Shown one piece after another: positions 12,516 to 26,862 of a stretch of DNA of 64,000 nt (position 1 is the stretch's first letter; each line of letters begins with the position of its first letter). Source of the stretch: Streptacidiphilus sp. ASG 303 (GTDB lineage: Bacteria; Actinomycetota; Actinomycetes; Streptomycetales; Streptomycetaceae); contig NZ_JAJLRA010000005.1 of the NCBI RefSeq assembly GCF_020991365.1, positions 124,001 to 188,000 on the forward strand, written 5' to 3'. The notes below the pieces were generated by a model. It made no database searches. It saw nothing but the letters and a program-made list of their open reading frames with translations, and was not told where the DNA came from. The position numbers were made by a program, and so were the translations under genes.

Positions 12516-12751
12516 GCGCGGACGTGCGCTCCCGGGAGCGGCACGATCGCAGCGAGAGGTCAGCGTACCTGCTCCGGGGGGTGGAGCGCTGCAGTGCCGG
12601 GCGGGCGGGACGGGGGCGGCGGGCGGGGTTGACGGGGGGCGGCGGGTGGGAGGATGGGTTCGGCGACAATGGGGAGCCGATCAGCGGACCGACGGCCGAA
12701 CTGCCGTACGGGCGGGGGCCGCGCCGGGCGTGGGCGAGCTTGGAGTGCGAT

Positions 12752-14116
12752 GTGACGGCGGGAATCACGCGGGGGCGCCGCAGGTCCGTGCTGGGCGGGC
12801 TGGTCGCGCCGCTGCCCCTGCTGGCGGGGTTCGCCGCGGTGGCGCTGGCGGCCGCGCCGATGTCGCACCCGGGCGGAGGGACGCGTTCGTGGTGGCGGCG
12901 CAACGAGAACATGCGGGCCGATGCGCAGGCCGCCCGCGACGCCGCCGCGCAGGCCTTCTACGAGCTGGACTCGGCGCAGCGCGACGTGCGGATCTCGGTG
13001 GAGACCGTGAAGGCCGTCGACACCTCGCCGCTCGCGCGGCGGGCGGTGGGCGAGTTCGACGACCTGTCGCGGCGGGTGGACGAGGTGAGCAGCGCGTACA
13101 TCGCCGCCCTGGACGCGCACGACCTGGACGCCGACGGCCTGGAGACGGGAGCCGCGGCCCGGGCCCGCCGCGAGCTGGACCAGGCACGGCAGCAGCTGCA
13201 GCGGACGAAGGGCGAGCTGGAGGCGTACCACCGCACGCTGGAGCCGCTGCTGGGCCGGGCCGAGAGCGAGCTGGCGCGGGTGGTCCCGGCGGTGGAGCGG
13301 GCGAAGCAGGCGCTGCTGGCGGCGACGGCGGCCCTGGACGCGGTCCGGGAGGCCGGGCTGCGGGCGGACGACATGGCGGCGCGGCTGGCGGCGCTGGCCC
13401 CGGAGCTGACCCGGCTGAACGAGGGCGCGGGCCGGCACGGCGTGCAGGAGACGCTGCGGCGCGCCGACGACGTGCTGCGCCGGGCGGAGGCGGTGCGGGG
13501 AGAGGCCGAGCACCTGCCGGAGCGGGCGCGTGAGGTCGACCGCCGGGTGGTGAGCCTGCGGACCCGGATGCAGGCGCTGGAGACCAGGGCGGGCACGCTG
13601 GACCCGACGCTCAGCGAGCTGCGGCGCCGGTTCAGCGCGGAGTGCTGGCAGGACCTGCAGCGGGTGCCGCGGCAGACCGCGGAGTCGGTGGCGGCGGCGC
13701 GGGCCAGGGTGGACGAGGCCGCGGTCGCGCGCGACGAGCAGCGGTGGGCGGACGCGACGGCGGCGCTGGCCACAGCCCGGGCGCTGCTCAACACCTCGGA
13801 CGGGGCGGTGGCGGCGGTCGGCGAGCGGCTGCGGCAGCTGACCGAGGTGGAGCGGGACCCGAAGGCGGAGATCGAGCGGACCCGGTTCGCGGTGCGGGAC
13901 GCGCAGCGGCTGGCGATGACGGGCCGCAGCGCCCCGGACCCGCGGCACGCGGCTCCGCTGGACGCGGCGGTGGAGCGGCTGGACCGGGCGGTGGCCGGGC
14001 TCACGGGCCGGCATCCGGACTACTGGCACTTCCTGCAGGAGACGGCGGCGGTGCGGGAGACCGCGGCCCGGGTGGTGCAGCGGATCCGGGAGGACATGGG
14101 CGCCGGCGGCCGCTGA
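12752..14116 (+). CDS. Membrane-anchored coiled-coil protein
   Basis: A 454-residue protein: a short basic start (MTAGITRGRRR), one membrane segment at ~12-36 (VLGGLVAPLPLLAGFAAVAL), then long, charged, Ala/Glu/Arg-rich helices from ~55 to the end with heptad-like patterns (ELDQARQQLQRTKGELEAYH and the ALDAVREAGLRAD region). This predicts extended coiled coils outside the membrane. No catalytic motif is present. GTG at 12752 follows GGAG at 6 nt, which decides the start over the longer open frame. The family seems to be a conserved streptomycete hypothetical; a structural or envelope role is only an inference. Confidence 0.75.
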   Translation: MTAGITRGRRRSVLGGLVAPLPLLAGFAAVALAAAPMSHPGGGTRSWWRRNENMRADAQAARDAAAQAFYELDSAQRDVRISVETVKAVDTSPLARRAVGEFDDLSRRVDEVSSAYIAALDAHDLDADGLETGAAARARRELDQARQQLQRTKGELEAYHRTLEPLLGRAESELARVVPAVERAKQALLAATAALDAVREAGLRADDMAARLAALAPELTRLNEGAGRHGVQETLRRADDVLRRAEAVRGEAEHLPERAREVDRRVVSLRTRMQALETRAGTLDPTLSELRRRFSAECWQDLQRVPRQTAESVAAARARVDEAAVARDEQRWADATAALATARALLNTSDGAVAAVGERLRQLTEVERDPKAEIERTRFAVRDAQRLAMTGRSAPDPRHAAPLDAAVERLDRAVAGLTGRHPDYWHFLQETAAVRETAARVVQRIREDMGAGGR

Positions 14117-14320: not shown

Positions 14321-14542
14321 ATGCCTCGCTACGACTTCCGGTGCCGCTCCTGCGGCGCCACCTTCGAGCTCCGCCGTCCCATGTCGCAGTCCGGTGCGCC
14401 GGCCGTCTGCCCCAAAGGGCACGAGGACACGGTGAAGCTGCTCTCCACCGTCGCGGTGACCGGCACGGCCTCCGGCGGCGCGGCCGCCGCCCCGTCCGGG
14501 GGCGGGGGCGGCGGCTGCTGCGGCGGAGGCTGCTGCGGGTGA
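14321..14542 (+). CDS. FmdB family zinc-ribbon protein
   Basis: A 73-residue protein starting MPRYDFRCRSCGATFELRRPM, with a CxxC, then CPKGHED, and a Gly/Cys-rich tail (GGGGGCCGGGCCG). The first ~40 residues are the FmdB-type putative regulatory zinc ribbon. The Gly-Cys tail is a common feature of actinobacterial members. TACGCT ends 6 nt before the ATG, so the mRNA is probably leaderless. Exact role in the cell is unknown; the family name comes from a formamidase-associated gene. Confidence 0.85.
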   Translation: MPRYDFRCRSCGATFELRRPMSQSGAPAVCPKGHEDTVKLLSTVAVTGTASGGAAAAPSGGGGGGCCGGGCCG

Positions 14543-14954
14543 CGCGCTCCTCGGACTGAGGAGCGGCCGTCCCGCCCGTGACTGGGGCCGACCCGGGGGG
14601 CTTCCCGTCCCGCCGGGGCCGGCCGGGGCGGCCTCCGGCCCTGCGGTCCGTGCGCGGGTGGCTCCGTGTGCAGCTGGTCCCGCGTGCGGGTGTCCCGTAC
14701 GCGAGTGGTCCCATGCGTGGGTGGTCCCATGCGCGGCTGCTGCACGCCTCCGCCCGTTCGGCGGCCGCCGGGCCGAGCCGCGGCCCTGACGGCCCAAGCC
14801 GGCTTACGGTGCCCTCACGGCCCCTGCGCACCCGCTCGGCGACCGGCCTTCGGCGCAGCGCGGCAAGCGCCCGGCGCTGCGTGCTCCCGGGAGCCGGGGC
14901 CGCGCTTCCCGGCCGGACGGTGGACGGTGAACGGTGGGCGGATCCGGGCGGCGT
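14543..14954. other. Non-coding gap with short direct repeats
   Basis: About 410 bases; no gene on either strand. It includes two direct copies of GGTGGTCCCATGCG-like sequence around 14703-14735 and further GTCCC/GTGCG motifs. It separates the FmdB gene from the convergent Ter-type operon; no clear terminator stem was found. Confidence 0.35.
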
Positions 14955-15734
14955 TCAGCGCGACACGTCGGCGGACGGCAGGGGGACGGCGGCCGGGCCG
15001 TGGGCACGGCCGGTGGCCGCAGGGCGGCCCGGGGCGGCGAGCCAGTCGTGCCAGCCGCCCGTGAGGACGAGGTCGGCCAGGCGGTCGTAGCCCCGCTCGC
15101 CCGGGTGGGCTCCGTCGCCGGCCGCCGCCTCGGCCTGCCAGTCCGGGTCCCCGGCGAGCAGCCGGGCCACGGGGATCCACGGCACGCCGGCCCGGTCGCA
15201 GACGTCGCGGAGCCGCTCCTCCAGGTCGAGGAGCCGCCGCAGGTGCGCGGCGCCGCGGTCGTGGACGGGCGGCGGGCCGACGACGAGGACGTCCGTGCCG
15301 CGGTCGGCGGCCCCGGCGAGCAGCCGGCCGAGGTGGCCGGCGGTGTCGGCGGGCCGGACACGTGGTGCGCCGCCTTCTTCCACCGCGTCGTTGCTGCCGA
15401 AGGAGACGACGAGCCGGTGGTCGGCACCGGGTGCGGTGCGGCGGCCGGCCTCGTCCCAGCAGCGGGCGAGGACGTCGGCCGAGGTGTCGCGGCGGACGCC
15501 CAGGTTGAAGCCCGTGACGTCGCGGGCGGGATCCGCGGCGGCGGTGGCGGCGAGCACCCGGCCCACCCAGCCGCGGTACTGGGGGTCGCCGACGCCCTGG
15601 ACGAAGGAGTCGCCGAGGAAGCAGATCCGCAGGGGCCCGCCGCCCGGGACCGGCGTCCCGGCGGCGGCCCGCGCCGGTGCGGCGGCCCGCGCCCCGGCGG
15701 CGGCGTGCGCCCCGGCGGCGGAAGGAGCGGTCAC
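14955..15734 (-). CDS. SGNH/GDSL hydrolase, last gene of the Ter-type operon
   Basis: A 259-residue hydrolase starting at the GTG (15734) whose first bases overlap the stop codon of the HAD gene (GTGA), so translation is coupled. After a ~35-residue Ala/Pro linker comes ICFLGDSFVQGVGD (block I, catalytic Ser), FNLGVRRDTS (block II Gly), VVSFGSNDA (block III Asn) and DGAHPGERGYDRLADLVL (block V, D-x-x-H). All SGNH residues are therefore present. These enzymes deacylate esters; position in the operon suggests trimming or releasing an acyl or sugar ester of the pathway product. No signal peptide is visible, so it is probably cytoplasmic. Confidence 0.85.
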   Translation of the reverse strand: MTAPSAAGAHAAAGARAAAPARAAAGTPVPGGGPLRICFLGDSFVQGVGDPQYRGWVGRVLAATAAADPARDVTGFNLGVRRDTSADVLARCWDEAGRRTAPGADHRLVVSFGSNDAVEEGGAPRVRPADTAGHLGRLLAGAADRGTDVLVVGPPPVHDRGAAHLRRLLDLEERLRDVCDRAGVPWIPVARLLAGDPDWQAEAAAGDGAHPGERGYDRLADLVLTGGWHDWLAAPGRPAATGRAHGPAAVPLPSADVSR

Positions 15735-16621
15735 CGGCGCCCGGCGGCCGGGGCGAGGCCGCCGTCGCGGACGGGCACGCCCTCCCGCACGTGCTCCAGC
15801 AGGCGGCGGACGATCTCCTCGCCGGCCGCGGCGCCCACCTGCGGGAGCGCGGTGACGCCGGGGCCGGTCCAGCCGGTCTCGGCGAGTTCGCCGTGGCCGG
15901 GCCGGTAGCCGGCGTCGGCGGCGAGGAGGAGTTCGGCGTCGAGGAGGGAGTCGCCGGCGGTGAGGACGGTGGCGGCGCCGGTACGGCGCTCCACCTCGGC
16001 GAGGGCCGCGCTCTTGGTGAGCGGTGCGGGGACGGCGTAGACCTTGCGCCCCTGGAGGGAGACGGTCCAGCCGCGTTCGGCGGCCCAGGCGGTGAGTTCG
16101 CCCAGCCAGTGCTCGGGGAGCTGCTCGCGCTCGACGACGAGGTAGGCGAAGAGGTCCTCGGCGACGCGGCGCTTGAGGGTCCACTCGGGGTCGGCGGTGA
16201 GGGCCAGGTGGTGGACGACCTCCTCCAGCGGGGCGGAGGCGTCGGCGAGGCGGCCGCGCATGTCGGCGTGCCAGTCGTGGTCGGTCTCGCCGTCGACGAG
16301 GAGGTGGCCGCCGTTGGCGCAGATCGCGTAGCGGGGGGTCCAGCCGGGGTGCGGGCCGGGCAGGTTGATCCGCCCGTACTGGGCGCGGGTGCGGGTGGTC
16401 GCGGGGACGAAGACGCAGGAGCGGGCCAGCTCGACGAGGAGTTCCGCGGCGTGCTCGGTCATGAAGGAGAGCGGCCTGCCGTTGTGGACCTCGACGGCGA
16501 GCAGCCGGGGGGCCTCCTCGTCGGGGACGCCGAGGGCTAGGGCGCGCGGCGAGTAGACGAGGGTGCGGTCGAGGTCGCTGGCGACCAGGAAGCGGGCGGC
16601 GGACTGGCGGGGGGCGGTCAC
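15731..16621 (-). CDS. HAD superfamily hydrolase (Cof/sucrose-phosphatase-like) of the Ter operon
   Basis: A 296-residue HAD phosphatase: motif I SDLDRTLVYS (nucleophile Asp plus acid-base Asp) near 15, motif II near PATTRTRAQY, motif III Lys in PLTKSAALAEV and motif IV TAGDSLLDAELL. A C2-type cap with the YAICANGGHLLVDGE signature fits phosphatases acting on sugar or nucleotide phosphates. GTG at 16621 overlaps the stop of a preceding 58-codon frame by GTGA, and its own stop overlaps the SGNH gene by the same four bases. In published analyses of Ter systems a HAD phosphatase accompanies PRTases and a C-C lyase, presumably to dephosphorylate a nucleoside-like intermediate. Confidence 0.85.
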   Translation of the reverse strand: MTAPRQSAARFLVASDLDRTLVYSPRALALGVPDEEAPRLLAVEVHNGRPLSFMTEHAAELLVELARSCVFVPATTRTRAQYGRINLPGPHPGWTPRYAICANGGHLLVDGETDHDWHADMRGRLADASAPLEEVVHHLALTADPEWTLKRRVAEDLFAYLVVEREQLPEHWLGELTAWAAERGWTVSLQGRKVYAVPAPLTKSAALAEVERRTGAATVLTAGDSLLDAELLLAADAGYRPGHGELAETGWTGPGVTALPQVGAAAGEEIVRRLLEHVREGVPVRDGGLAPAAGRR

Positions 16622-16794
16622 CGGGCGGCGCCTTCCGGGGTGGGGCGGACGGCGGCCGGGGGTGCGGGGGTCGCCCCCCGGGACGGCGCCGCGGCGGGGG
16701 TGCGGTCGGGGCCGCCGGCGGACGGCGGGCGGGCGGCCGGGAGGCGGGCGCCGGGGAAGCGGGCGGTGGGGCGCCGGCGGGCTGGGGCGGTCAC
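16618..16794 (-). CDS. Candidate 58-residue translational relay ORF
   Basis: A GTG at 16794 overlaps the stop of the StiP-like gene (GTGA), and its TGA at 16618-16620 overlaps the HAD gene GTG in the same way. The product would be Pro/Ala/Arg-rich (begins VTAPARRRPTARFPGA) with no domain. It may only keep ribosomes moving across a 170-base gap, or be chance in GC-rich DNA. Not evidence of a functional peptide. Confidence 0.35.
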   Translation of the reverse strand: MTAPARRRPTARFPGARLPAARPPSAGGPDRTPAAAPSRGATPAPPAAVRPTPEGAAR

Positions 16795-18071
16795 CGGGCG
16801 TCACCTGCCGGGGCCGGGGCGGGCAGGGCGGTGGCGGTGGCGGTGGCGCCGGCGGTGGCGGTGGCGGTGGCGGCGGTGCCGTCGTCGCCGGTGGCGCCGC
16901 GGGTGTACCGGGGGTGGATGAGGCCGACGCAGGAGTACGGCAGGTCGTCGACCTCCTCGACCGGGACGCCGCGCTGGGCGGCGAGCAGGCGCACGTGGTC
17001 GAGGTCGGACCCGGCTCCGCGGCGGGCGAGGACCCGCCAGGGCACCCGGCGCAGCAGGACGCGGGTGGTCTCGCCGACGCCGGGCTTGACCAGGTTGACG
17101 CTGCCGATGCCGTACTCCTCGCTGATCCGCTCGACGGCGGCCCAGCCCTCCCAGGTGGGGGCCCGGTCGGCGGGGTCGGCCTCGACGAGGTCGGCGGCGT
17201 CGCGGACGGCGTCGTCGCGGACGGCCGGGAAGTGGTCGGCGACGGTGTCGAGGAAGGCGCGGGAGACGTCGGCGGCGGCGAGTTCGCGGTAGTACTTGGC
17301 GCCGTGGAAGTCGTCGGGCCCGATGAGGTCGGTGCGCAGCACGGTGCGGGAGACCAGGCCGGAGACGGTGGAGTTGAGGCAGGCGGAGGGGATGAGGAAG
17401 TCCTCGCGGGTGCCGTAGGTGGAGACGCAGCGGCCGGGGTCGGCGAGGACGGCGAGGCCGGGGTCGAAGCCGGTGCCGTCGAGGGCGTCGTGGAGTTCGC
17501 GGGTGATGGCGCCCTTGCCGGTCCAGCCGTCGACGAAGACGACGTCGAGCGGGTCGTGGTGGGCGGCGAGGTAGCGCAGGGCGACGGGGTCGATGCCGCG
17601 GCCGCGGACGATGGAGACCGCGTAGTGGGGCAGGTCGACCCCGTGGGCGTAGGCGGCCCAGCGCCGCATGAGGACGCCGACCGGGGTGCCCGCGCGGGCG
17701 AGCGAGGCGAGGACGACGCCGCCGCTGTCGGAGCGGGTGCCGCGCTCGGCGAGGAGCGTCTCGGTGACGGCGCCGACGGCGCGGGCGATGCGGGGCGCGG
17801 AGGCGCGCAGCGCTTGGTGGAAGAGCTCCTGGTAGTCGGGGCTCGGCTGGTACTCCACCGGCAGCATCTCGGCGTAGTGGGCGCCGCCGGACTGGATGGC
17901 CTCCTCCCGTTCCTCGGTGGGGGCCTCCAGGGGCACGTCGGAGAGGTCGGTGAGCAGCCAGGAGACCTCGTGGGCGGCGTAGGAGGAGAACTGGGGCCCG
18001 TGCAGGGGCCCGGGCAGCACTCCCGCGGCCCGGGGCTGGGCCGGGACGGCGGTGCTCGGCATCGTGGTCAT
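16791..18071 (-). CDS. StiP-family (PRTase_1) protein with C-terminal PELOTA-like domain, Ter operon
   Basis: A 426-residue protein of the family annotated as cysteine protease StiP, which comparative studies instead class as a phosphoribosyltransferase-like enzyme. Seen here: an N-terminal SSYAAHEVSWLLTDLSDVPL (30-48), VVLASLARAGTPVG (119-132), the PRPP-loop-like VVFVDGWTGKGAIT (177-190) and HGAKYYRELA (256-265). A C-terminal L7Ae/PELOTA-like part runs ~305-390 (VNLVKPGVGETTRVLLRR, VRLLAAQRGVPVEEVDDLPYS). The final ~30 residues are Ala/Thr low complexity from GGTGGC repeats. ATG at 18071 follows GAAGG. It probably builds or transfers a ribosyl unit together with the PRTase-TRSP protein. Confidence 0.85.
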   Translation of the reverse strand: MTTMPSTAVPAQPRAAGVLPGPLHGPQFSSYAAHEVSWLLTDLSDVPLEAPTEEREEAIQSGGAHYAEMLPVEYQPSPDYQELFHQALRASAPRIARAVGAVTETLLAERGTRSDSGGVVLASLARAGTPVGVLMRRWAAYAHGVDLPHYAVSIVRGRGIDPVALRYLAAHHDPLDVVFVDGWTGKGAITRELHDALDGTGFDPGLAVLADPGRCVSTYGTREDFLIPSACLNSTVSGLVSRTVLRTDLIGPDDFHGAKYYRELAAADVSRAFLDTVADHFPAVRDDAVRDAADLVEADPADRAPTWEGWAAVERISEEYGIGSVNLVKPGVGETTRVLLRRVPWRVLARRGAGSDLDHVRLLAAQRGVPVEEVDDLPYSCVGLIHPRYTRGATGDDGTAATATATAGATATATALPAPAPAGDAR

Positions 18072-18145
18072 GCTCGCCTTCGGTGTGGGCGCCGAATGGT
18101 TCGGGCGGGTGGCCGGGGTCGCTGCCGCCGGTGCGTGCGGGGTCG

Positions 18146-18206
18146 GTGGGCCGGAGGTCGGGGGCCGGAGGTCGGGGGCCGGAGGTCGGGGGCCGGAGGT
18201 CGGGGG
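18146..18206. repeat. 14-bp tandem repeat inside the Ter operon
   Basis: About four head-to-tail copies of GGGGGCCGGAGGTC (first copy truncated by two bases) fill the 153-base space between the PRTase and StiP genes. Adjacent bases 18233-18265 carry a second, 13-bp repeat (CGGGCCCGGTACG) that encodes the end of the PRTase protein. Confidence 0.85.
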
Positions 18207-18224
18207 CGGAGGGGGCCCGGCGGG

Positions 18225-19637
18225 TCAGGTGCCGGCGGGCCCGGTACGGGCGGGCCCGGTACGGAGGGGCTCGGGGCCCGGGTGGGTTCGGTGTGTTCCA
18301 ACGTCCCGGGGGGCCGTTCCGGTTCCCCGCGGGGTGCGGGGGCCGGGCAGGCGGGAGGGGACGACGGCCAGGACGACCTGGTCGGTGACCTGCGCGAGGA
18401 GGGCGGCGAGGCCGTCGCCGGAGCGGTGGAGCTCGGGCGTGTCGGCGGTGTCGTCGACGACGAGGACGACGGCGTCGAAGCGCCGGGAGGGGTCGGCGCC
18501 GGGCGCCACGTTGTAGGCGTAGCGGGTACCGGGGCCGTCGGCGGGGCGGTCGTGGGCGGGGAACGCCAGCCGGGTGCGGATGGCGTAGCCGGGGTCGTCG
18601 ACGGCGAGGACGGGCGAGCGCGTGGTGGTGGAGAAGCGGACCTCGGCGCGGTCGCCGAGGGCGTGGCCGAGGGCCTCGGCGAGGCGCAGCGGGACGTACA
18701 TCAGCTCCTCGGAGCCGAGGACGAGGACGCGGCGCGGAGTGCCGGTGAGGGCGGCGGCGAGGCGGCGGCCGAGGCCGGGCAGGGCGGCCTCCAGGCGGCG
18801 GCGGTGCTCGGGGGTGAAGCCGTGGCGGCCGCCGTCGGGGAGGCCGGCGGGCCAGTCGAGGCCGGCGCGGACGAGGGGGGCGGGACCGGTGCCGGCGGCG
18901 GCCCCGCCGTGGGCCCCGCCGTGGGCCTCGTCGTGCGCCTCGACCAGCGCCTGGGCGCGGGGCAGGACGTCGGCGGGCAGGTGGACGGTGCCGGAGGCCG
19001 CGGCGACCAGGTCGAGGCGGGCGCCGAGTGCGGCGGCGGCCTCGGCGAGGTGCCCGCGCTGCCCGGGGTCGCGCATGTCGACGAGGGACACGACGACGTA
19101 GCGGTCGCGGGGGTGCGCGGCGTGCAGGGCGCGGATGGTGTTGAGGACGGTCCGGCCGGTGGAGAACTCGTCGTCGACCAGCACCAGCGGCCCGCCGCCG
19201 GAGAGGAGGTGCGGGTCCTCGGGGAGCAGCAGGTGGGAGGTGGCGTGGGAGTGCTCCTCCTCGAACCCGCCCACCGGTTCGACGCCGGCCACGGGCCGGC
19301 GGGTGGAGTGCAGGTAGGGCGCGCTGCCGAGGCCGTCGGCGACGCTGTGGCCGAGGGCGGTGGCCGTCTCGGCGTAGCCGAGGACGACGGCGCGGCGGGC
19401 CTCGTCCGGTCCGAGGAGGTCGCGGACGCGGGCGCCGAGGGCCAGGCCGGCGCCGTGGACGGCGGCGGGGAGCTGGGGGACGTGCTTGCCGAGGACGGTG
19501 GAGACCAGGAGGTGGGCGCGGCGGGGGTTGCGGCGCAGGGCGAGGCCGAGGAGGCCGCGCAGGGCGGGGTCGCCGTCCACGCGCACGCCGAGGCGGTCGG
19601 CCACCCACTGGCCGGTCCAGGTGTCCTGGTGGGTCAA
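18225..19637 (-). CDS. Phosphoribosyltransferase with TRSP domain (PRTase_2-TRSP), Ter operon
   Basis: A 470-residue two-domain protein. The PRTase part shows VVLGYAETATALGHSVAD (84-101) and the canonical PRPP loop LVLVDDEFSTGRT (151-163). The C-terminal part carries RVLVLGSEELMYVPLRLAEAL (303-323) and the TTRSPV signature (338-343) that names the TRSP domain. Such proteins occur only in Ter-type stress operons and are predicted to attach phosphoribose to a base-like precursor; the reaction is not known experimentally to me. The last ~35 residues are Pro/Arg/Thr/Gly-rich. The TTG start at 19637 has AGGGA just upstream. Confidence 0.85.
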   Translation of the reverse strand: MTHQDTWTGQWVADRLGVRVDGDPALRGLLGLALRRNPRRAHLLVSTVLGKHVPQLPAAVHGAGLALGARVRDLLGPDEARRAVVLGYAETATALGHSVADGLGSAPYLHSTRRPVAGVEPVGGFEEEHSHATSHLLLPEDPHLLSGGGPLVLVDDEFSTGRTVLNTIRALHAAHPRDRYVVVSLVDMRDPGQRGHLAEAAAALGARLDLVAAASGTVHLPADVLPRAQALVEAHDEAHGGAHGGAAAGTGPAPLVRAGLDWPAGLPDGGRHGFTPEHRRRLEAALPGLGRRLAAALTGTPRRVLVLGSEELMYVPLRLAEALGHALGDRAEVRFSTTTRSPVLAVDDPGYAIRTRLAFPAHDRPADGPGTRYAYNVAPGADPSRRFDAVVLVVDDTADTPELHRSGDGLAALLAQVTDQVVLAVVPSRLPGPRTPRGTGTAPRDVGTHRTHPGPEPLRTGPARTGPAGT

Positions 19638-19991
19638 GGTCCCTGCTCTCTGTCGTCTCTGTCGTCTCTGCGGTCTCTGTCGTCCCTGCCGTCCGCGGTT
19701 CCCCGTCGTCCGCGGCGGGGCGCCGTCCGCGGCGGCGGGGGTGTCCGGCGGTGCGTCCCGGGGTCCGTCCGGGGCCGGGCGGCCCCGCGGGGCGCACGCC
19801 GGCCGCGGGCGGCCGGCCGGGAACGCCCGTACGACGGTACGTGCCCCGCCGCGGGGACCGTCACCGAGGTCGGGGCCCAGGTGACCATGCGGCGGTGACG
19901 GCGGGGTGTCGCCGGGCCGTCCGGCGGGTGTCCGGAGCGGTGGCGGCCCGGGGGCGTGCGGGCGGGGGCGCCCGGCGCGCGGGCGGGGCGT
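19638..19991. other. Operon-internal spacer between lyase and PRTase genes
   Basis: About 350 bases without a gene, unusual inside an otherwise tightly coupled operon. It contains the 9-bp repeat (19647-19691) and GTCCGCGG-rich copies (19690-19730). A second promoter for the four downstream genes could be here; no clear hexamers are visible. Confidence 0.35.
19647..19691. repeat. Five-copy 9-bp tandem repeat before the PRTase start
   Basis: Units TCTCTGTCG, TCTCTGTCG, TCTCTGCGG, TCTCTGTCG, TCCCTGCCG in a row, ending 9 bases from the PRTase start codon. On the transcript they give CGACAGAGA repeats, purine-rich and placed where a ribosome standby site or promoter would be. Confidence 0.85.
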
Positions 19992-21233
19992 TCAGGAGCA
20001 CAGGCACGCGGAGAGGAGCTCGGCGAAGGTGACGTCCTCGCGGGCGACGCCGAAGGCGGAGGCGCGCAGCATGACGCGCTGCGCCCAGGCGCGGTGCGGC
20101 TTCACCTCGTTCATCTTGTTGGTGTACGCGGACCTCAGGACGCCGCCGCCGGACCGGTCCTCGTGGAGGATGTCGGCGGCGTCGGAGAACTCCTCGTGGG
20201 TGACCACGGAGAGGGCGTGCACGGCGGGCACGTGGCTGGGGTGGATGCAGGTCTTGCCGAGCAGGCCGTTGGCGCGGTCGAGCTCGATCTCGCGGATGAG
20301 GCCGTCGAGGTCGTGCTCGATGATCCTGCGGCGGACCGCCTCGCCGGGCGGGTCGGTCTGCTGGAGGAAGGGCGAGCGGCGCAGCTGCGGCTTGAACATC
20401 CGCTCGTGGACGGGGAAGTACTCCCACACCGGGCCGGTGACGGTGAACCCGGTGCCGTCGGCGCGGCCGAGGACGTTGACCACGTCGCCGATCACGGAGG
20501 CGACGAGGGCGACGTCGTAGGCGGTGAGGTCCGGGGAGCGGCGCAGGCCGTAGGCGGAGCACAGGTCGGTGACGCCGAGGCGCACGGCGAGGACCCGGTC
20601 GCGGTACTTCTCCAGGACGCGGGCGACGCCGGTCAGCACGTCGCGGCGGGTCTCCAGGTGGGCGAGCTCGGGGGACTCCAGGACCGGCATGGCGAGGAGG
20701 CGGTGGCCGGAGGCGGCCTCGGCGGCGGCGAGCGCCTCCAGGAAGGCCGCACCGGAGTCCTCGGTGAACTTCGGCAGCACGAAGCCGGAGAGCACCCGCA
20801 GGGCGGGGCCGAGGCGGCGGGTGAGGTCGCCTATCTGCTCGGGGGTGCGGACCCGTATGAAGAGCAGCGGCCAGTCGCCGTCGTCCTCGGGGGTGGCGTC
20901 CGCCGGGCCGCCGTGGTGCGGGGTGCCGTCCGCCGGGCCGCCGTGCTCCGCGGCGTCGGCGAGCGCGCGGAGCTGGGCGACGAGGTTGGCCTCGCCGGCG
21001 GGGACGTCGCGGTCGTCGATGGCGTCCTCCAGGCAGAGCACCATCGAGACGACGCCGCGGGCGGCCTGCCTGCGGACGTCCTCCAGGAGGCGGGGGCGGG
21101 TGGCGGGGCTGTAGAGGGTGGCGCCGAGGGCGGTGGCGAGGACGGCGGGATCGGCGCCGCGGGTGAAGTGCTCGGGTTCGCGGTGGAAGAGCCTCTGCCG
21201 GACGTCGTCGTCCAGGTGCCCGAAGTGGCGCAT
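19992..21233 (-). CDS. HpcH/HpaI aldolase / citrate lyase-like C-C bond lyase, first gene of the Ter operon
   Basis: A 413-residue TIM-barrel lyase of the CitE/HpcH superfamily, in the branch found with Ter genes. Visible: MRHFGHLDDDVRQRLFHR start, VVSMVLCLEDAIDD (61-74, metal-binding Glu/Asp), LLFIRVRTPEQ, VLPKFTED, MPVLESPELAHL, RLGVTDLCSAYGLRR and GKTCIHPSHV. A poorly conserved insert at ~90-115 contains a duplicated GGPAD(G/A)TP coded by a direct repeat. The ATG at 21233 follows GGGGAGAG. It likely splits or forms a C-C bond in the proposed nucleoside-like metabolite, with divalent metal. It is divergent from the plus-strand terD gene. Confidence 0.88.
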   Translation of the reverse strand: MRHFGHLDDDVRQRLFHREPEHFTRGADPAVLATALGATLYSPATRPRLLEDVRRQAARGVVSMVLCLEDAIDDRDVPAGEANLVAQLRALADAAEHGGPADGTPHHGGPADATPEDDGDWPLLFIRVRTPEQIGDLTRRLGPALRVLSGFVLPKFTEDSGAAFLEALAAAEAASGHRLLAMPVLESPELAHLETRRDVLTGVARVLEKYRDRVLAVRLGVTDLCSAYGLRRSPDLTAYDVALVASVIGDVVNVLGRADGTGFTVTGPVWEYFPVHERMFKPQLRRSPFLQQTDPPGEAVRRRIIEHDLDGLIREIELDRANGLLGKTCIHPSHVPAVHALSVVTHEEFSDAADILHEDRSGGGVLRSAYTNKMNEVKPHRAWAQRVMLRASAFGVAREDVTFAELLSACLCS

Positions 21234-21696: not shown

Positions 21697-22593
21697 ATGA
21701 CGCAGGTCATGGTGAAGGGTTCCAACATCCCGCTGTCCGCCGCCGCGGTGCGCGCGGTGCTGCGCTGGGGCGCGGCGTCCGGCGCGCCCGACGTGGACGC
21801 CTCCGCGCTGCTCCTGGGGGCCGACGGCAGCGTCCGCTCCGACGAGGACTTCGTCTTCTACAACCAGCCGCACCACCCGTCGGGCCTGGTGCGCCACCGC
21901 GCCAAGCAGCGGGTCGGCGACGCGGTCGCCGACACCGTCGAGGTGGACCTGGCGCAGCTCCCGGCGGACGTGGACCGGGTGGTGCTCGCCGGCTCCGCCG
22001 AGGAGGGCCCCTTCGGCGCCGTGCCGGACCTGCAGGTGCTGCTGTACGACGCCGCGGCGCCCGAGGACGGCGAGCCCCTGGCGCGGTTCGACATCGCGGA
22101 CGCCGGCGAGGAGACCGCGCTGCTCTGCGCCGAGCTCTACCGGAGGGGCGACGGCTGGAAGTTCCGGGCCATCGGCCAGGGCTACGCCAGCGGACTGGCG
22201 GGGCTCGCGACGGACTTCGGGATCGCGGTGGAGGAGGACGGGCCGGTACCGGCGGGGGCGGCCGAGGGCGCCCCCGCGCAGGCGGCCACCGCGCCGGCGC
22301 CGCCCGGGCCCGCGCCGGCACCGCCCTCGGAGCGGGAGGACCCGGCGGCCCGGCCGCAGCAGCGCGCCGCGGCCGCGTCCCCCGACGGACCCTCAGCGCC
22401 CGCCTGGGAGCCGCCCCGGCCGGATCCGGCCACGGCGTACCCTCCCCCGCCGCCGCGGGCGCCGTCCGCACCCCCGCAGCAGCCGCTCCAGCCCCTCCAG
22501 CCCCAGGCGCTGCAGCCGCAGCCGCAGCCGTCGCAGCCCGACCCGGCGGTGTTCACGCTGCCGCCGCAGGGCCCCCAGTTCCAGCCGCGCTGA
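21697..22593 (+). CDS. TerD family protein with Pro/Gln-rich C-terminal tail
   Basis: A 298-residue protein. Residues 1-~180 are a TerD domain (Ca2+-binding beta-sandwich of tellurite/stress systems): DVDASALLLGADG, DEDFVFYNQPHHPSG, VEVDLAQLPADVDRVVLAGS and the family end [23 protein letters not shown]. The remaining ~115 residues are Pro/Ala/Gln-rich with PQQPLQPLQPQALQPQPQ, probably disordered and apt to bind partners. The N-terminal first strand (MTQVMVKGSNIPL) lacks the LxKGGNVSL pattern of canonical TerD, so calcium ligands may differ. It faces the TerA-like gene tail to tail, 60 bases apart. Confidence 0.88.
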   Translation: MTQVMVKGSNIPLSAAAVRAVLRWGAASGAPDVDASALLLGADGSVRSDEDFVFYNQPHHPSGLVRHRAKQRVGDAVADTVEVDLAQLPADVDRVVLAGSAEEGPFGAVPDLQVLLYDAAAPEDGEPLARFDIADAGEETALLCAELYRRGDGWKFRAIGQGYASGLAGLATDFGIAVEEDGPVPAGAAEGAPAQAATAPAPPGPAPAPPSEREDPAARPQQRAAAASPDGPSAPAWEPPRPDPATAYPPPPPRAPSAPPQQPLQPLQPQALQPQPQPSQPDPAVFTLPPQGPQFQPR

Positions 22594-22653: not shown

Positions 22654-23382
22654 TCACTCGGGTGTGCCCTGCGGCGTCTTGTAGCCCCGCTGCCACTGCA
22701 TGCCGAAGCCGTACAGCCGGTCCAGTTCGGCCTGGAACCCGTAGACGTAGCGCACCTCGCGGCGGACCGTCAGGTTGCCGTCCTTGTTCTCGATCATGAC
22801 GACCGCGCACGAGCGCGCCTGGGGGGCGCGCTCGTCGAGCGCCACCTCGATCCGCGGCCCGACGTAGGGGAAGAGCGTCACGACCGCGTGGGTGCGGTCG
22901 AAGGCGGGCGTGCCGTCGTAGATGTACACGAAGACCAGCAGGCGCTTGAAGCTGTCCCGCTTGTCCAGGTTGATGTACATGGTCTCGCCGGACGGGGCGC
23001 CGTACCGGTCGTCGCCGCTGATCTTGATGTACGGGGGCCGCTGGAGGTCGCCGAGGAGGTTGCCCAGCGGCTGGACCACCCCCCGGCTGCCGTCGGCCAG
23101 TTCGTACATGCAGGCCAGGTCGAGGTCGACGTTGACCATCGGCCGGGTGGAGACCTGGGGCTGCGTCGGGCGGAAGAGCCCGGGCCGCAGCAGGCCGCCG
23201 CGCTGCTGCACCAGGTCGGCCTGACGCATCGTCCAGTGCAGGTTGATCTGCAGGTGTCCGGTGACCGCCCCCTGGTCCGTCAGCGAGACCAGGGGCGACG
23301 CCTTCGTCAGCGTCACCTTGTGCAGGCCGGCCGCCTCCACGGCCTGCCGAGACCGCCGCAGGTAGTCCCACAGCGCAGTCAC
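22654..23382 (-). CDS. TerA/TerD-fold tellurium resistance protein
   Basis: A 242-residue protein of the Ter superfamily. VSLTDQGAVTGHLQINLHW, VNVDLDLACMYELADGSRG, IKISGDDRYG and GETMYINLDKRDSFKRLLVF are TerD-fold signatures with acidic calcium-type loops, and the C-terminus (GNLTVRREVRYVYGFQAEL) fits the TerA-like branch. Stress-induced Ter proteins are thought to assemble at the membrane with TerC. GTG at 23382 is chosen since GGGGGG lies ~10 nt upstream; GTGs at 23391 and 23400 are alternatives. Not part of the minus-strand lyase operon, since terD lies between. Confidence 0.8.
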   Translation of the reverse strand: MTALWDYLRRSRQAVEAAGLHKVTLTKASPLVSLTDQGAVTGHLQINLHWTMRQADLVQQRGGLLRPGLFRPTQPQVSTRPMVNVDLDLACMYELADGSRGVVQPLGNLLGDLQRPPYIKISGDDRYGAPSGETMYINLDKRDSFKRLLVFVYIYDGTPAFDRTHAVVTLFPYVGPRIEVALDERAPQARSCAVVMIENKDGNLTVRREVRYVYGFQAELDRLYGFGMQWQRGYKTPQGTPE

Positions 23383-23706
23383 CGATGCCACCCCCCACAC
23401 CCGTAAGCCCGTACAGCCGTCGTCCGTACACGTCGCACCCGCCCCGCCCTGCGGCGGGCCGGCGGTGCGCCGCCACCCAGGGACTACCCGCGGGACGTGC
23501 CCGGGGCACCAGCTTTCCGTACTCGGCCGGAAAACGCCCGACCGCCCCCGCCGCCCTCCGCCTCACCGCTTACTATGCGGCCCCCCGGACGCGATATCGT
23601 CATGCCGCACAGGTGTCCCCCGCCGCCCCAGGCGGCGCGACCGCACGTCAGGACACCCTCCTCACCTGCCCGTTGCACGGCCGGAAAGCCGAGGCTCACT
23701 CCGCAC
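23383..23706. other. Divergent intergenic region
   Basis: About 320 bases between the TerA-like gene and the DUF2637 gene. TACTAT at about 23572 and GATATC at 23592 are the AT-rich spots and plausible promoter elements for the plus-strand gene; CGTACAGCCGTCGTCCGTACA near 23411 is a short imperfect repeat. Confidence 0.35.
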
Positions 23707-24777
23707 ATGACTCTCTCCTCCATACAGCTGGTCTGGGCCGTCGTCGGCGGCGCCGCGCTGCTCTTCACGGCCATCCTCCTCGTCATGCTCCGCACCAAGC
23801 GGACTCCCGCCGAGGCGCAGAACCAGGACTCCTGGGAGCGCAGCGAGGAGCGCCGCCGCCGCAAGGAGATGGTGTACGGCATCGCCTCCTACGTGCTGCT
23901 GTTCTGCTGTGCGGCGGTGGCCGCGGCGCTCTCCTTCCACGGGCTGGTCGGCTTCGGACGGGAGAACCTCAACCTGTCCGGCGGCTGGGAGTACCTGGTG
24001 CCGTTCGGGCTGGACGGCGCCGCGATGTTCTGCTCGGTGCTGGCGGTCCGCGAGGCCAGCCACGGCGACGCCGCCCTGGGCTCCCGGCTGCTGGTGTGGC
24101 TCTTCGCCTTCGCCTCGGCCTGGTTCAACTGGGTCCACGCCCCGCGCGGCGGCGGCCACGACGGCGCCCCCCAGTTCTTCTCCGGCATGTCCATCTCGGC
24201 CGCGATCCTCTTCGACCGCGCCCTGAAGCAGACCCGCAAGGCCGCCCTGCGCGAGCAGGGCCTGGTGCCGCGCCCGCTCCCCCAGATCCGCATGGTCCGC
24301 TGGCTGCGGGCCCCCCGCGAGACCTACGCCGCCTGGTCGCTGATGCTCCTGGAGGGCGTGCGCAGCCTGGACGAGGCCGTCGAGGAGGTCCGCGACGAGC
24401 GGCAGCAGAAGCTGGACTCCAAGGTCCGGGCCCGGGCCGCGGACCGGCGCGAGCGCGCCGAGCTCAAGGCCATCGCCCGCCAGGGCCGGGTGTGGAGCGG
24501 CCGCCGCGGCGGGCGCCAGGTTCCGGCGCTGACCGCCGCCGGGGAGCAGCAGCCCGTTACGGAGCCTGCCCCAGGAGCGGCGGAGAGCGCGGTCGGCGCG
24601 GCCGCCCTGGAGCCGGCCTCGGTGACCGGGCGGCGGGCCGTCACGGCCGCCCCCGAGTCGGCGGCGCTGCCGGCGGGCCGCACGGTGGACCTCACCGCCG
24701 ACGACGACACCCTGGCGATGCCGCGGCTGGACTCCCTGGAGCGCAAGCTGCGGGCGATCGAGCAGACCCTGGGCTGA
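23707..24777 (+). CDS. DUF2637 domain (SpdB-like) membrane protein
   Basis: A 356-residue protein with four membrane segments in the first ~165 residues (IQLVWAVVGGAALLFTAILL, YGIASYVLLFCCAAVAAAL, YLVPFGLDGAAMFCSVLAV, LLVWLFAFASAWFNWVHAP). A cytoplasmic, charged helical region follows (VRDERQQKLDSKVRARAADR) and an acidic tail ending in a helix (DSLERKLRAIEQTLG). DUF2637 proteins include plasmid spread proteins, but chromosomal copies such as this are common in streptomycetes and have no known function. The start ATG at 23707 has only a distant GAGG. No sign of adjacent plasmid transfer genes. Confidence 0.8.
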   Translation: MTLSSIQLVWAVVGGAALLFTAILLVMLRTKRTPAEAQNQDSWERSEERRRRKEMVYGIASYVLLFCCAAVAAALSFHGLVGFGRENLNLSGGWEYLVPFGLDGAAMFCSVLAVREASHGDAALGSRLLVWLFAFASAWFNWVHAPRGGGHDGAPQFFSGMSISAAILFDRALKQTRKAALREQGLVPRPLPQIRMVRWLRAPRETYAAWSLMLLEGVRSLDEAVEEVRDERQQKLDSKVRARAADRRERAELKAIARQGRVWSGRRGGRQVPALTAAGEQQPVTEPAPGAAESAVGAAALEPASVTGRRAVTAAPESAALPAGRTVDLTADDDTLAMPRLDSLERKLRAIEQTLG

Positions 24778-26286: not shown

Positions 26287-26862
26287 TTACTGAACGTTGA
26301 CTCCGAAGTCTAGGGCGATACCCCGCAGCCCCGACGCGTACCCCTGTCCGACCGCCCGGAACTTCCACTCGCCCTGGTAGCGGTAGAGCTCGCCGAAGAT
26401 CATCGCGGTCTCGCTGGAGGCGTCCTCGGTGAGGTCGTAGCGGGCCAGCTCGCTGCCGTCCGCCAGGTTCACGACCCGGATGTAGGCGTTGCGGACGTGG
26501 CCGAAGGACTGCATGCGCGCCTCGGCCTCGTAGATCGACACCGGGAACACGATCTTGTCGACCTGCTGCGGCACCAGGTCGAGGTTGACGACGACGACCT
26601 CGTCGTCGCCCTCCCCCTCGCCGGTGAGGTTGTCGCCCTGGTGCTCCACCGAGCCCTCGGGGCTCTTGAGGTTGTTGTAGAAGACGAAGTACTCGTCGCC
26701 GAGCACCCGGCCGTTGGCGCACAGCAGGGCGCTGGCGTCCAGGTCGAAGGGCGCGCCGGTGGTCGAGCGCGCGTCCCAGCCCAGGCCGATCTGGACCTGG
26801 GTGAGGTTGGGTGCGGCCTTGGTGAGGGAGACATTGCCCCCCTTGGCGAGCGTGACGCCCAT
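26287..26862 (-). CDS. terD: TerD family stress protein (copy 1)
   Basis: A 191-residue canonical Ter[23 protein letters not shown], then [35 protein letters not shown] and the closing [20 protein letters not shown]. The D-rich loops coordinate Ca2+ in solved TerD structures. Expressed during oxidative and tellurite stress in streptomycetes, where terD copies also affect development. ATG at 26862 follows GGAGGA at 9 nt. About two thirds identical by eye to the gene immediately upstream, so a tandem duplication. Cotranscription with DUF475 downstream is likely. Confidence 0.93.

Follow-up and report, generated by a model that had tools for sequence, protein, structure and literature searches.

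A 2012 study of tellurium-resistance-type (Ter) systems reportedly proposed a nucleoside-like metabolite as their product. In the portions of later papers available to us, this Ter metabolite is still spoken of as a prediction (among PMC7824862, PMC12054061, PMC8115787, PMC6790187, PMC6838324, PMC11046441, and PMC7549927). The module of Enterobacterales and Pseudomonas comprises an ATP-grasp enzyme, PRTase_2-TRSP, a HAD phosphatase, StiP-PELOTA, and a C-C lyase. A second point of reference is Bcs3 of the Hib capsule machine, in which, according to the part of the source available to us, CriT transfers ribofuranose-5-P from PRPP, followed by the action of the HAD phosphatase CrpP (PMC10299916).

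Here, we analyzed 64,000 nucleotides of Streptacidiphilus sp. ASG 303 (the window) and found that its Ter-linked operon, which encodes a widespread set of stress-linked enzymes, has the form usual for streptomycetes. With reasonable confidence, we read the module as the standard actinobacterial form (lyase, PRTase_2-TRSP, StiP-PELOTA, and HAD), with ATP-grasp as an optional outer step, an SGNH gene as a chance insertion, and a proposed PRPP-dependent ribosylation as its working.

Gene layout of the locus

The preliminary description placed five minus-strand ORFs at 14955-21233, and these were confirmed, with families assigned by Pfam for four of them and by residues and modelled fold for the HAD. 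Family comparisons below draw on 62 other loci, fetched from 61 genomes. The features of the locus, in window coordinates, are as follows:

12524..14116, plus strand: coiled-coil protein, convergent with the module; a common border gene (55/62 family loci)
14321..14542, plus strand: small ORF, read from sequence, that we take to be an FmdB-like zinc ribbon; common to same-genus genome G001
14955..15734, minus strand: SGNH/GDSL hydrolase, catalytic blocks look intact; PF13472, E 2.4e-22; outside the conserved module
15731..16621, minus strand: HAD phosphatase, trehalose-6-phosphate/sucrose-phosphate phosphatase type; a GTG at 16804 could serve as the start instead
16791..18071, minus strand: StiP (PRTase-like fold) plus PELOTA_1 (L7Ae-like fold); PF11202, E 4.5e-104; PF15608, E 6.9e-35
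18225..18227, minus strand: in-frame TGA, sole separator of PRTase_2-TRSP from StiP; same frame, linker otherwise open
18225..19637, minus strand: PRTase_2 plus TRSP; PF15609, E 9.3e-68; PF12500, E 1e-39
19992..21233, minus strand: C-C_Bond_Lyase, CitE/HpcH-like with a TIM-barrel fold; opens the module from an ATG at 21233; PF15617, E 7.7e-122
21697..22593, plus strand: TerD-domain protein ending in a proline-rich tail, transcribed away from the module; PF02342, E 4.7e-46; start taken from translation
22654..23382, minus strand: TerA-like protein; tblastn, 36-43% identity to TerA-region genes of loci L037-L039
25080..26213, minus strand: TerC-like membrane protein (TerC/DUF475); PF04332, E 1.2e-128; PF03741, E 3.9e-18
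26287..26862, minus strand: TerD; PF02342, E 1.7e-81

The PRTase_2-TRSP, StiP-PELOTA, and HAD genes thus adjoin TerD/TerC genes, with the C-C_Bond_Lyase in the same operon, and the earlier identification of a Ter-associated biosynthetic module flanked by Ter genes stands: TerD and TerC/DUF475 were recognized by Pfam, and the TerA-like gene, for which there was no Pfam match, by tblastn only. Matches in the window to DNA_pol_B_N, DUF459, and EzrA fell under the Pfam cut-off and were disregarded. The run had also been described as having GTGA overlaps, which is true of the HAD/SGNH junction (15731-15734) but of no other. The lyase and PRTase_2 genes are separated by 354 bp and PRTase_2-TRSP and StiP by 153 bp. 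The StiP-HAD junction depends on the HAD start codon: a 14-nt overlap with GTG at 16804, a 169-bp gap with GTG at 16621.

Although no significant Pfam match was obtained for the HAD, its model is a capped HAD fold (Foldseek E 2.1e-16) with the DxD, T/S, K, and GDxxxD motifs in place; D17, D19, T76, R78, K204, D225, and D229 (numbered on window 15731-16624) are invariant in 37 aligned homologues. The PDB matches of the lyase were weak and to acyl-CoA lyase beta chains. The PRTase_2-TRSP protein contains VLVDDEFSTGRT, presumably a PRPP-loop-like stretch, and StiP carries what we take to be its own PRPP-loop motif. PRTase_2-TRSP and StiP form a single ORF in 43/68 actinobacterial loci; no description of this fusion was found in the titles and abstract openings of the literature searched, which was covered in part.

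Probable core and optional genes across genomes

StiP is encoded in 190/200 Streptomycetaceae genomes. All four genes (lyase, PRTase, StiP, and HAD) occur together in 60/62 family loci, with per-gene counts of 61/62 for HAD, 61/62 for PRTase, and 60/62 for the lyase; neither ATP-grasp nor SGNH was detected at any (0/62 each). The same order, with no ATP-grasp found, recurs in four same-class loci (L067-L070) and in Tsukamurella. An O-methyltransferase downstream of the HAD was considered as a further member and rejected, as just 19/62 loci had a homologue that was both co-oriented and no more than 3 kb away. In Tsukamurella, a homologue of the coiled-coil border gene precedes the lyase gene.

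A second scan took 80 loci in order of their similarity to a Pseudomonas StiP, and the share found for each layer should therefore not be read as a census. PRTase_2 and HAD were each found in all 80 loci, the lyase in 78, and ATP-grasp in 61, every one of which also contained the lyase; absence of ATP-grasp was scored as no tblastn match with three queries at E <= 1e-4. Three of the 19 loci from which it was absent (L118, L141, and L190) end at a contig edge. The core occurs without lyase or ATP-grasp at L071 (from a distant actinobacterial lineage), at two Rhizobium loci, and in phage ME3. This distribution suggests a core of PRTase_2, StiP, and HAD, to which first the lyase and then ATP-grasp are optional additions. 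No common replacement gene emerged among the upstream ORFs of at least 80 aa in the 19 ATP-grasp-less loci, which were read rather than profile-searched. Similar small membrane-protein ORFs precede the PRTase gene in L160, L177, and, on the opposite strand, L125.

The absence of ATP-grasp at the present locus, by comparison with those 61 Pseudomonas-ranked loci, had been correctly noted, and the distant ATP-grasp_Ter gene that was to be looked for was not found when the whole genome (99.5% complete) was searched. Candidate hidden copies proved to be L-amino-acid-ligase types (L001 and L061), CarB (L002), and biotin carboxylase (L197); one generic ATP-grasp protein scored just above the PF15632 cut-off, with other ATP-grasp families matching it better. 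The suggestion that this absence marks a variant pathway did not survive: because no ATP-grasp was detected next to StiP throughout the family loci, in L067-L070 and Tsukamurella, and in 19/80 scan loci, the locus follows the family norm and is not a special variant.

Proposed chemistry and rival readings

The enzyme set probably attaches, and then trims, ribose on a small molecule. In such a scheme, PRTase_2-TRSP and StiP, often one polypeptide in relatives, would act as one physical unit that uses PRPP to add a ribosyl-5-phosphate to an acceptor, a step suggested by folds of the PRTase type and by stretches that resemble a PRPP loop. The HAD would then remove the phosphate, and the TIM-barrel lyase might, more tentatively, make or trim a side chain. 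In ATP-grasp lineages, a further carboxylate ligation may follow, since ATP-grasp was found at no locus without the lyase. In the literature's account, sensing the product, or responding to it, would fall to the TerD/TerA/TerC proteins.

For StiP, modelling points to a PRTase fold with a PRPP-loop-like stretch, at modest scores. Its Foldseek matches were PyrR/HPRT-type PRTases (best E 1.2e-3, none at E <= 0.001), and the top VIA-align row among those listed was 8a0c 639-947 (Z 11.2 over 198 residues at 7% identity), i.e., the CriT region, or ribosyltransferase part, of Bcs3. PyrR/HPRT rows came next at Z 9 to 10; with CriT only ~1.5 above them and at such low identity, the comparison does not settle O- versus N-ribosylation. 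The PELOTA_1 part yielded L7Ae profile matches.

A true nucleoside-like metabolite, with a nucleobase acceptor and the HAD performing a 5'-nucleotidase-like step, is possible, though we incline against it. The module does contain two PRTase-type proteins, PyrR and HPRT figure in both structural comparisons of StiP, and the nucleoside proposal is repeated in later papers, as far as the portions available to us go. However, CriT tops the StiP alignment. The 50 Foldseek matches listed for the HAD were trehalose-, sucrose-, and mannosylglycerate-phosphate phosphatases, phosphomannomutases, and unnamed HADs, and nothing among them was named a nucleotidase. Moreover, a solved protein deposited as "trehalose phosphatase" (6cj0/6d3v/6d3w) shares ~93% identity with the HAD that a P. 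aeruginosa plasmid carries in its Ter module; the window HAD is related to this protein more distantly (phmmer E 2.8e-11 to 6cj0/6d3v; ~25% identity). The P. aeruginosa enzyme is said to act on T6P, reportedly by its PDB entry titles and by Cross et al. in FASEB J in 2018. No link between trehalose phosphatase and Ter was found in the titles and abstract openings of the literature searched, with partial coverage.

A more specific version of the ribosylation scheme, which we regard as rather doubtful, would cast the core as a CriT/CrpP-like apparatus for PRPP-dependent ribofuranosylation, in which PRTase_2-TRSP and StiP are followed by a T6PP-type HAD. The Ter signal would then be a ribosylated, glycoside-like molecule and not a nucleoside, with lyase and ATP-grasp as successive optional decorations and the ATP-grasp provided from elsewhere in the genome in roughly half of the Streptomycetaceae.

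That the ATP-grasp step is present in streptomycetes and simply encoded in trans is, taken by itself, unlikely. PF15632 genes occur in 101/200 family genomes and in 0/10 StiP-less ones (Fisher p 7e-4, kinship ignored); the StiP-less genomes may represent few lineages, and relatedness was not controlled, so that on these sequence comparisons the co-occurrence is suggestive. Within genus g3, a subgroup picked after the data were seen, the split is 8/9 versus 0/5, and 20 sampled unlinked copies form a sister clade of the Ter-operon ATP-grasps. Against this, no such gene was identified in the window's genome, and 89/190 StiP-bearing genomes lack one; the copy in same-genus G001 belongs to another clade, that in G089 is incomplete and sits where its contig begins, and no Ter gene lies near the unlinked copy in the two loci with genes listed (L062 and L063).

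The preliminary description favoured a variant pathway with an undescribed product; that an SGNH esterase takes the place of the ATP-grasp step and yields a new product we consider very improbable. The protein does match the GDSL profile and PDB 1vjg (E 3.7e-37) and has GDS, GxND, and DxxH blocks, which we take to be the SGNH catalytic blocks; its reported joining to the HAD by overlap is real, and a 4-nt GTGA overlap can couple translation. The pathway role is what fails, given its absence from the family loci. The gene lies in ~1.16 kb that G001 lacks (window 14539-15777 versus 82 bp) and is absent at both same-genus loci, L041 and L042 (the latter ending ~0.6 kb past the HAD), with no homologue at E <= 1e-10 anywhere in those two genomes. 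Homologues in 32 other genomes of the 200 show no linkage to StiP: three of these genomes are StiP-less, in 16 the two genes share a contig at least 491 kb apart, and in 13 they are on different contigs. Because it is locally inserted and its linkage to the module is not conserved, SGNH does not define a pathway, was rejected as a member, and looks, from gene neighborhoods, like a chance neighbour and not a new step.

Finally, that StiP is the cysteine protease of its Pfam and RefSeq name and that the module processes proteins is scarcely credible, as no Cys is invariant or reaches 90% of a column in 32 StiP sequences, the FVDGWTGKG stretch is nearly invariant in them, and the model resembles PRTases plus an L7Ae-like domain.

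Comparison with described systems

Our analysis points to a division of the Ter module into core and optional genes, shows its two PRTase-type proteins to be often one polypeptide, and connects its phosphatase with a structure that had been solved under a different name. These results provide concrete substrates and assays for the long-open question of the Ter metabolite, with harmless streptomycetes as the organisms to work in. They also caution that the neighbouring SGNH gene should not be taken for a step of the pathway.

Relative to the Enterobacterales/Pseudomonas module, the same four core families lie beside Ter genes here; however, there is no ATP-grasp, the lyase is first and the HAD last, and PRTase_2-TRSP and StiP are often fused in relatives. 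The likeness to Bcs3 CriT/CrpP lies in a PRTase-fold enzyme paired with a HAD, whereas StiP and CriT share little sequence, CrpP does not figure among the 50 Foldseek matches listed for the HAD, no CroT-like or capsule gene was seen in the window, and no polymer would be expected. The solved P. aeruginosa phosphatase is a distant homologue of the window HAD. In the Ter operon of Acinetobacter phage ME3, there was no lyase or ATP-grasp match and TRSP was not reached at E 1e-5, yet TerD, PRTase_2, HAD, and StiP lie close together, as they do here.

The window locus and its counterparts

The module occupies high-GC DNA, surrounded by genes for TerD, TerA-like and TerC proteins and by a coiled-coil gene that converges on it, and the following features were delimited:

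19992-21233, minus strand, C-C_Bond_Lyase
18225-19637, minus strand, PRTase_2-TRSP
16791-18071, minus strand, StiP-PELOTA
15731-16621 (or with its start at 16804), minus strand, HAD phosphatase
14955-15734, minus strand, SGNH hydrolase

The preliminary description saw a five-gene run with GTGA overlaps; this holds at the HAD/SGNH junction and not at the remaining ones, with gaps of 354 and 153 bp at other junctions and an ambiguous StiP/HAD junction at which the HAD start is uncertain. The HAD start region (16560-16810) contains an apparent duplication, with two similar GGTGACCGCCCC stretches: the first coincides with the StiP stop and the second, ~170 bp away, with GTG 16621. A plus-strand membrane protein is encoded at 23497-24777, between the TerA-like and TerC genes; its equivalent occupies the same position in, e.g., L041, L044, L049 and L054, and not in L045 or L053.

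StiP was found in 190/200 Streptomycetaceae genomes and in 19/396 genomes of the phylum sample, 12 of these 19 being from the window's family. Across 62 fetched family loci (61 genomes, G190 being represented twice; six loci on short contigs or contig edges), we detected StiP in 62, PRTase_2-TRSP and HAD in 61 each, and the lyase in 60, with neither an ATP-grasp nor an SGNH gene in any of the 62. As all four core genes occur together, ATP-grasp-less, in 60 of these loci, the variant pathway initially suggested was not upheld; the window locus is a typical actinobacterial version of a known but unsolved module. L060 (G014) carries PRTase_2, StiP and HAD with no lyase match, and L074 (G005) retains StiP alone as a partial match (profile positions 40-244) between TerD and a DUF4383-like gene, with no lyase, PRTase or HAD match, i.e., an apparently decayed module. 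The same core without ATP-grasp is present in L067-L070, from another family of the class, and on a Tsukamurella plasmid. In L071-L073 (family f18, a distant lineage of the phylum), TerD and TerA-like genes adjoin a divergent StiP; L071, for which the whole locus was read, has the order TerD, PRTase_2, StiP, HAD, with lyase and ATP-grasp absent and the TRSP and PELOTA parts short of E 1e-5.

Downstream of HAD, at most 3 kb away and in the same orientation, 19/62 family loci (L045, L046, L051, L053, L056, L058-L060, L077, L081, L084-L086, L092, L095, L097, L098, L100, L104) have a homologue of the L051 O-methyltransferase (PF01596), with a uridine-kinase-like gene between the two in 9 loci.

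The SGNH esterase had been proposed as a member of the operon, in which no ATP-grasp gene was seen. The interval between the FmdB-like ORF and HAD is 1,239 bp in the window versus 82 bp in same-genus G001, and no SGNH homologue (E <= 1e-10) was found in G001 or in G002, also of this genus. Homologues at that threshold occur in 33/200 family genomes; among the 32 besides the window's, 3 lack StiP, 13 carry both genes on different contigs and 16 on one contig, the nearest pair being ~491 kb apart (G125). Judged from these sequence comparisons, the SGNH gene is an insertion and not part of the conserved module. Its best PDB match is 1vjg, a solved GDSL-family protein (E 3.7e-37).

ATP-grasp as an outer layer and an unlinked candidate

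That ATP-grasp is missing from the operon was borne out, and the genome search advised in the preliminary description likewise gave no ATP-grasp_Ter in the window's genome (6,985,763 bases, 200 contigs, 99.5% complete). There, searches with PF15632, with a two-sequence profile built on Ter ATP-grasps and with an ATP-grasp query from a streptomycete recovered generic ATP-grasp proteins only, rejected as L-amino-acid-ligase types, CarB and biotin carboxylase. Absence of ATP-grasp from the StiP locus is the normal state for the window's family.

Outside this lineage, ATP-grasp is an outer layer of the module. A named-genome scan used a StiP alignment whose lead sequence came from Pseudomonas, and the best 80 of 574 relatives were kept by likeness to the Pseudomonas protein, such that their percentages are no census: PRTase_2-TRSP and HAD occur in 80/80, the lyase in 78 and ATP-grasp in 61, all 61 with the lyase. 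Some ATP-grasp ORFs may be broken, given their short lengths in L117 (171 aa), L151 (75 aa) and L168 (260 aa). Three of the 19 ATP-grasp-less loci (L118, L141, L190) are cut by the end of a contig. For the Xenorhabdus, Photobacterium and Granulosicoccus loci the nearest upstream ORF of at least 80 aa is a divergent Ter gene, and thus no gene substitutes for ATP-grasp there. The core without lyase or ATP-grasp was seen in two Rhizobium loci of these 80, in L071 and in phage ME3, for which a published account likewise describes PRTases and HAD enzymes (PMC7824862).

With at most five candidates scored per genome, the two-sequence profile matched in 9/396 phylum genomes (E <= 1e-10), seven of them in the window's family. 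PF15632 genes (E <= 1e-15) occur in 101/200 family genomes, beside StiP in 0/62 family loci, and in 0/10 StiP-less genomes (p 6.9e-4, kinship of genomes uncorrected); within genus g3 the figures are 8/9 versus 0/5 (p 0.003, kinship and choice of subgroup uncorrected). The streptomycete query gave strong matches (E below 1e-100) in 7/40 chosen genomes, all StiP-bearing, against 0/10 of those lacking StiP. In a tree for which the program warned of several long branches, 20 sampled unlinked copies form one clade (99/93), sister to 42 Ter-operon ATP-grasps (94/81); these 62 are united at 99/96, apart from six other PF15632 proteins that include the sole copy of G001. Loci with ATP-grasp_Ter-type genes away from StiP include:

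L062-L066, L202-L203, L206-L215, L217-L219

Co-occurrence with StiP and the sister-clade placement thus give Streptomycetaceae a candidate in-trans partner for the module, one without a counterpart in the window's species and missing from 89/190 StiP-bearing genomes.

PRTase fusion, folds and proposed working

In 43/68 actinobacterial loci (e.g., L044, L053, L077, L112), PRTase_2-TRSP and StiP-PELOTA share one frame with no intervening stop, constituting strong evidence, at the sequence level, that they act together. The unfused loci comprise 21 with the two parts in different frames and 4 that keep a common frame; the window is one of these 4, with a single in-frame TGA (18225-18227) in a low-complexity linker. 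These 68 count G002 and G190 twice each; L071-L074 were unclassed, with no PRTase match in that search.

The module HAD of P. aeruginosa plasmid pPUV-17 (L039:13208-13963) matches PDB 6d3v/6d3w (E 5.3e-161) and 6cj0 (E 1e-160), P. aeruginosa entries titled 'Trehalose phosphatase', with 233/251 residues identical as counted from the alignment; the window HAD matches these chains at E 2.8e-11. The window HAD model (pLDDT 93) has the same chains as top Foldseek matches (E 2.1e-16, TM 0.66 on query), the next matches listed being sucrose-phosphate, other trehalose-phosphate and mannosyl-3-phosphoglycerate phosphatases, phosphomannomutases and unnamed HADs. Catalytic residues showed no variation in 37 aligned sequences. 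By homology and predicted fold, the Ter-module HAD belongs to the 6cj0/6d3v 'trehalose phosphatase' family, the solved P. aeruginosa member of which reportedly hydrolyses T6P (Cross and colleagues, 2018).

Across 32 StiP sequences, no cysteine was conserved at >=90%, and an FVDGWTGKG stretch is nearly invariant. The StiP model (pLDDT 88) led Foldseek to PyrR and HPRT (best E 1.2e-3, probability 1.0), and a sequence profile linked its C-terminal domain to L7Ae chains (E 8.6e-4); StiP is, on its predicted fold, a PRTase-like protein.

Overall, the preliminary description was largely right in observation and mostly not in interpretation, and the by-products, among them the fusion, the solved HAD relative and the unlinked ATP-grasp, add interest beyond that of the locus alone. 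Beyond the observed gene content, fusion, folds and conserved catalytic residues, we propose that the fused or paired PRTase proteins would ribosylate a putative acceptor with PRPP as donor, and that HAD would remove the 5-phosphate from the ribosylated product. The lyase and, where present, ATP-grasp would modify a side chain; since all 61 ATP-grasp loci also have the lyase, ATP-grasp presumably depends on what the lyase makes. The glycosidic bond formed could be of O- or N-type. There is a precedent among the aminoglycosides, where ribostamycin is made by the successive action of a PRTase and a phosphatase.

VIA-align placed the StiP model on residues 639-947 of 8a0c (Z 11.2, rmsd 3.6, 198 residues), ahead of 8a0m (Z 9.9) and of PyrR/HPRT chains (Z 9.7 and below), a structural likeness of the predicted model to CriT of Bcs3, the Hib capsule machine. 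In the published account of Bcs3, residues 655-715 and 796-903 form the CriT catalytic domain, O-linked ribofuranose-5-phosphate is transferred from PRPP by CriT, and CrpP, a HAD, then takes off the phosphate (PMC10299916).
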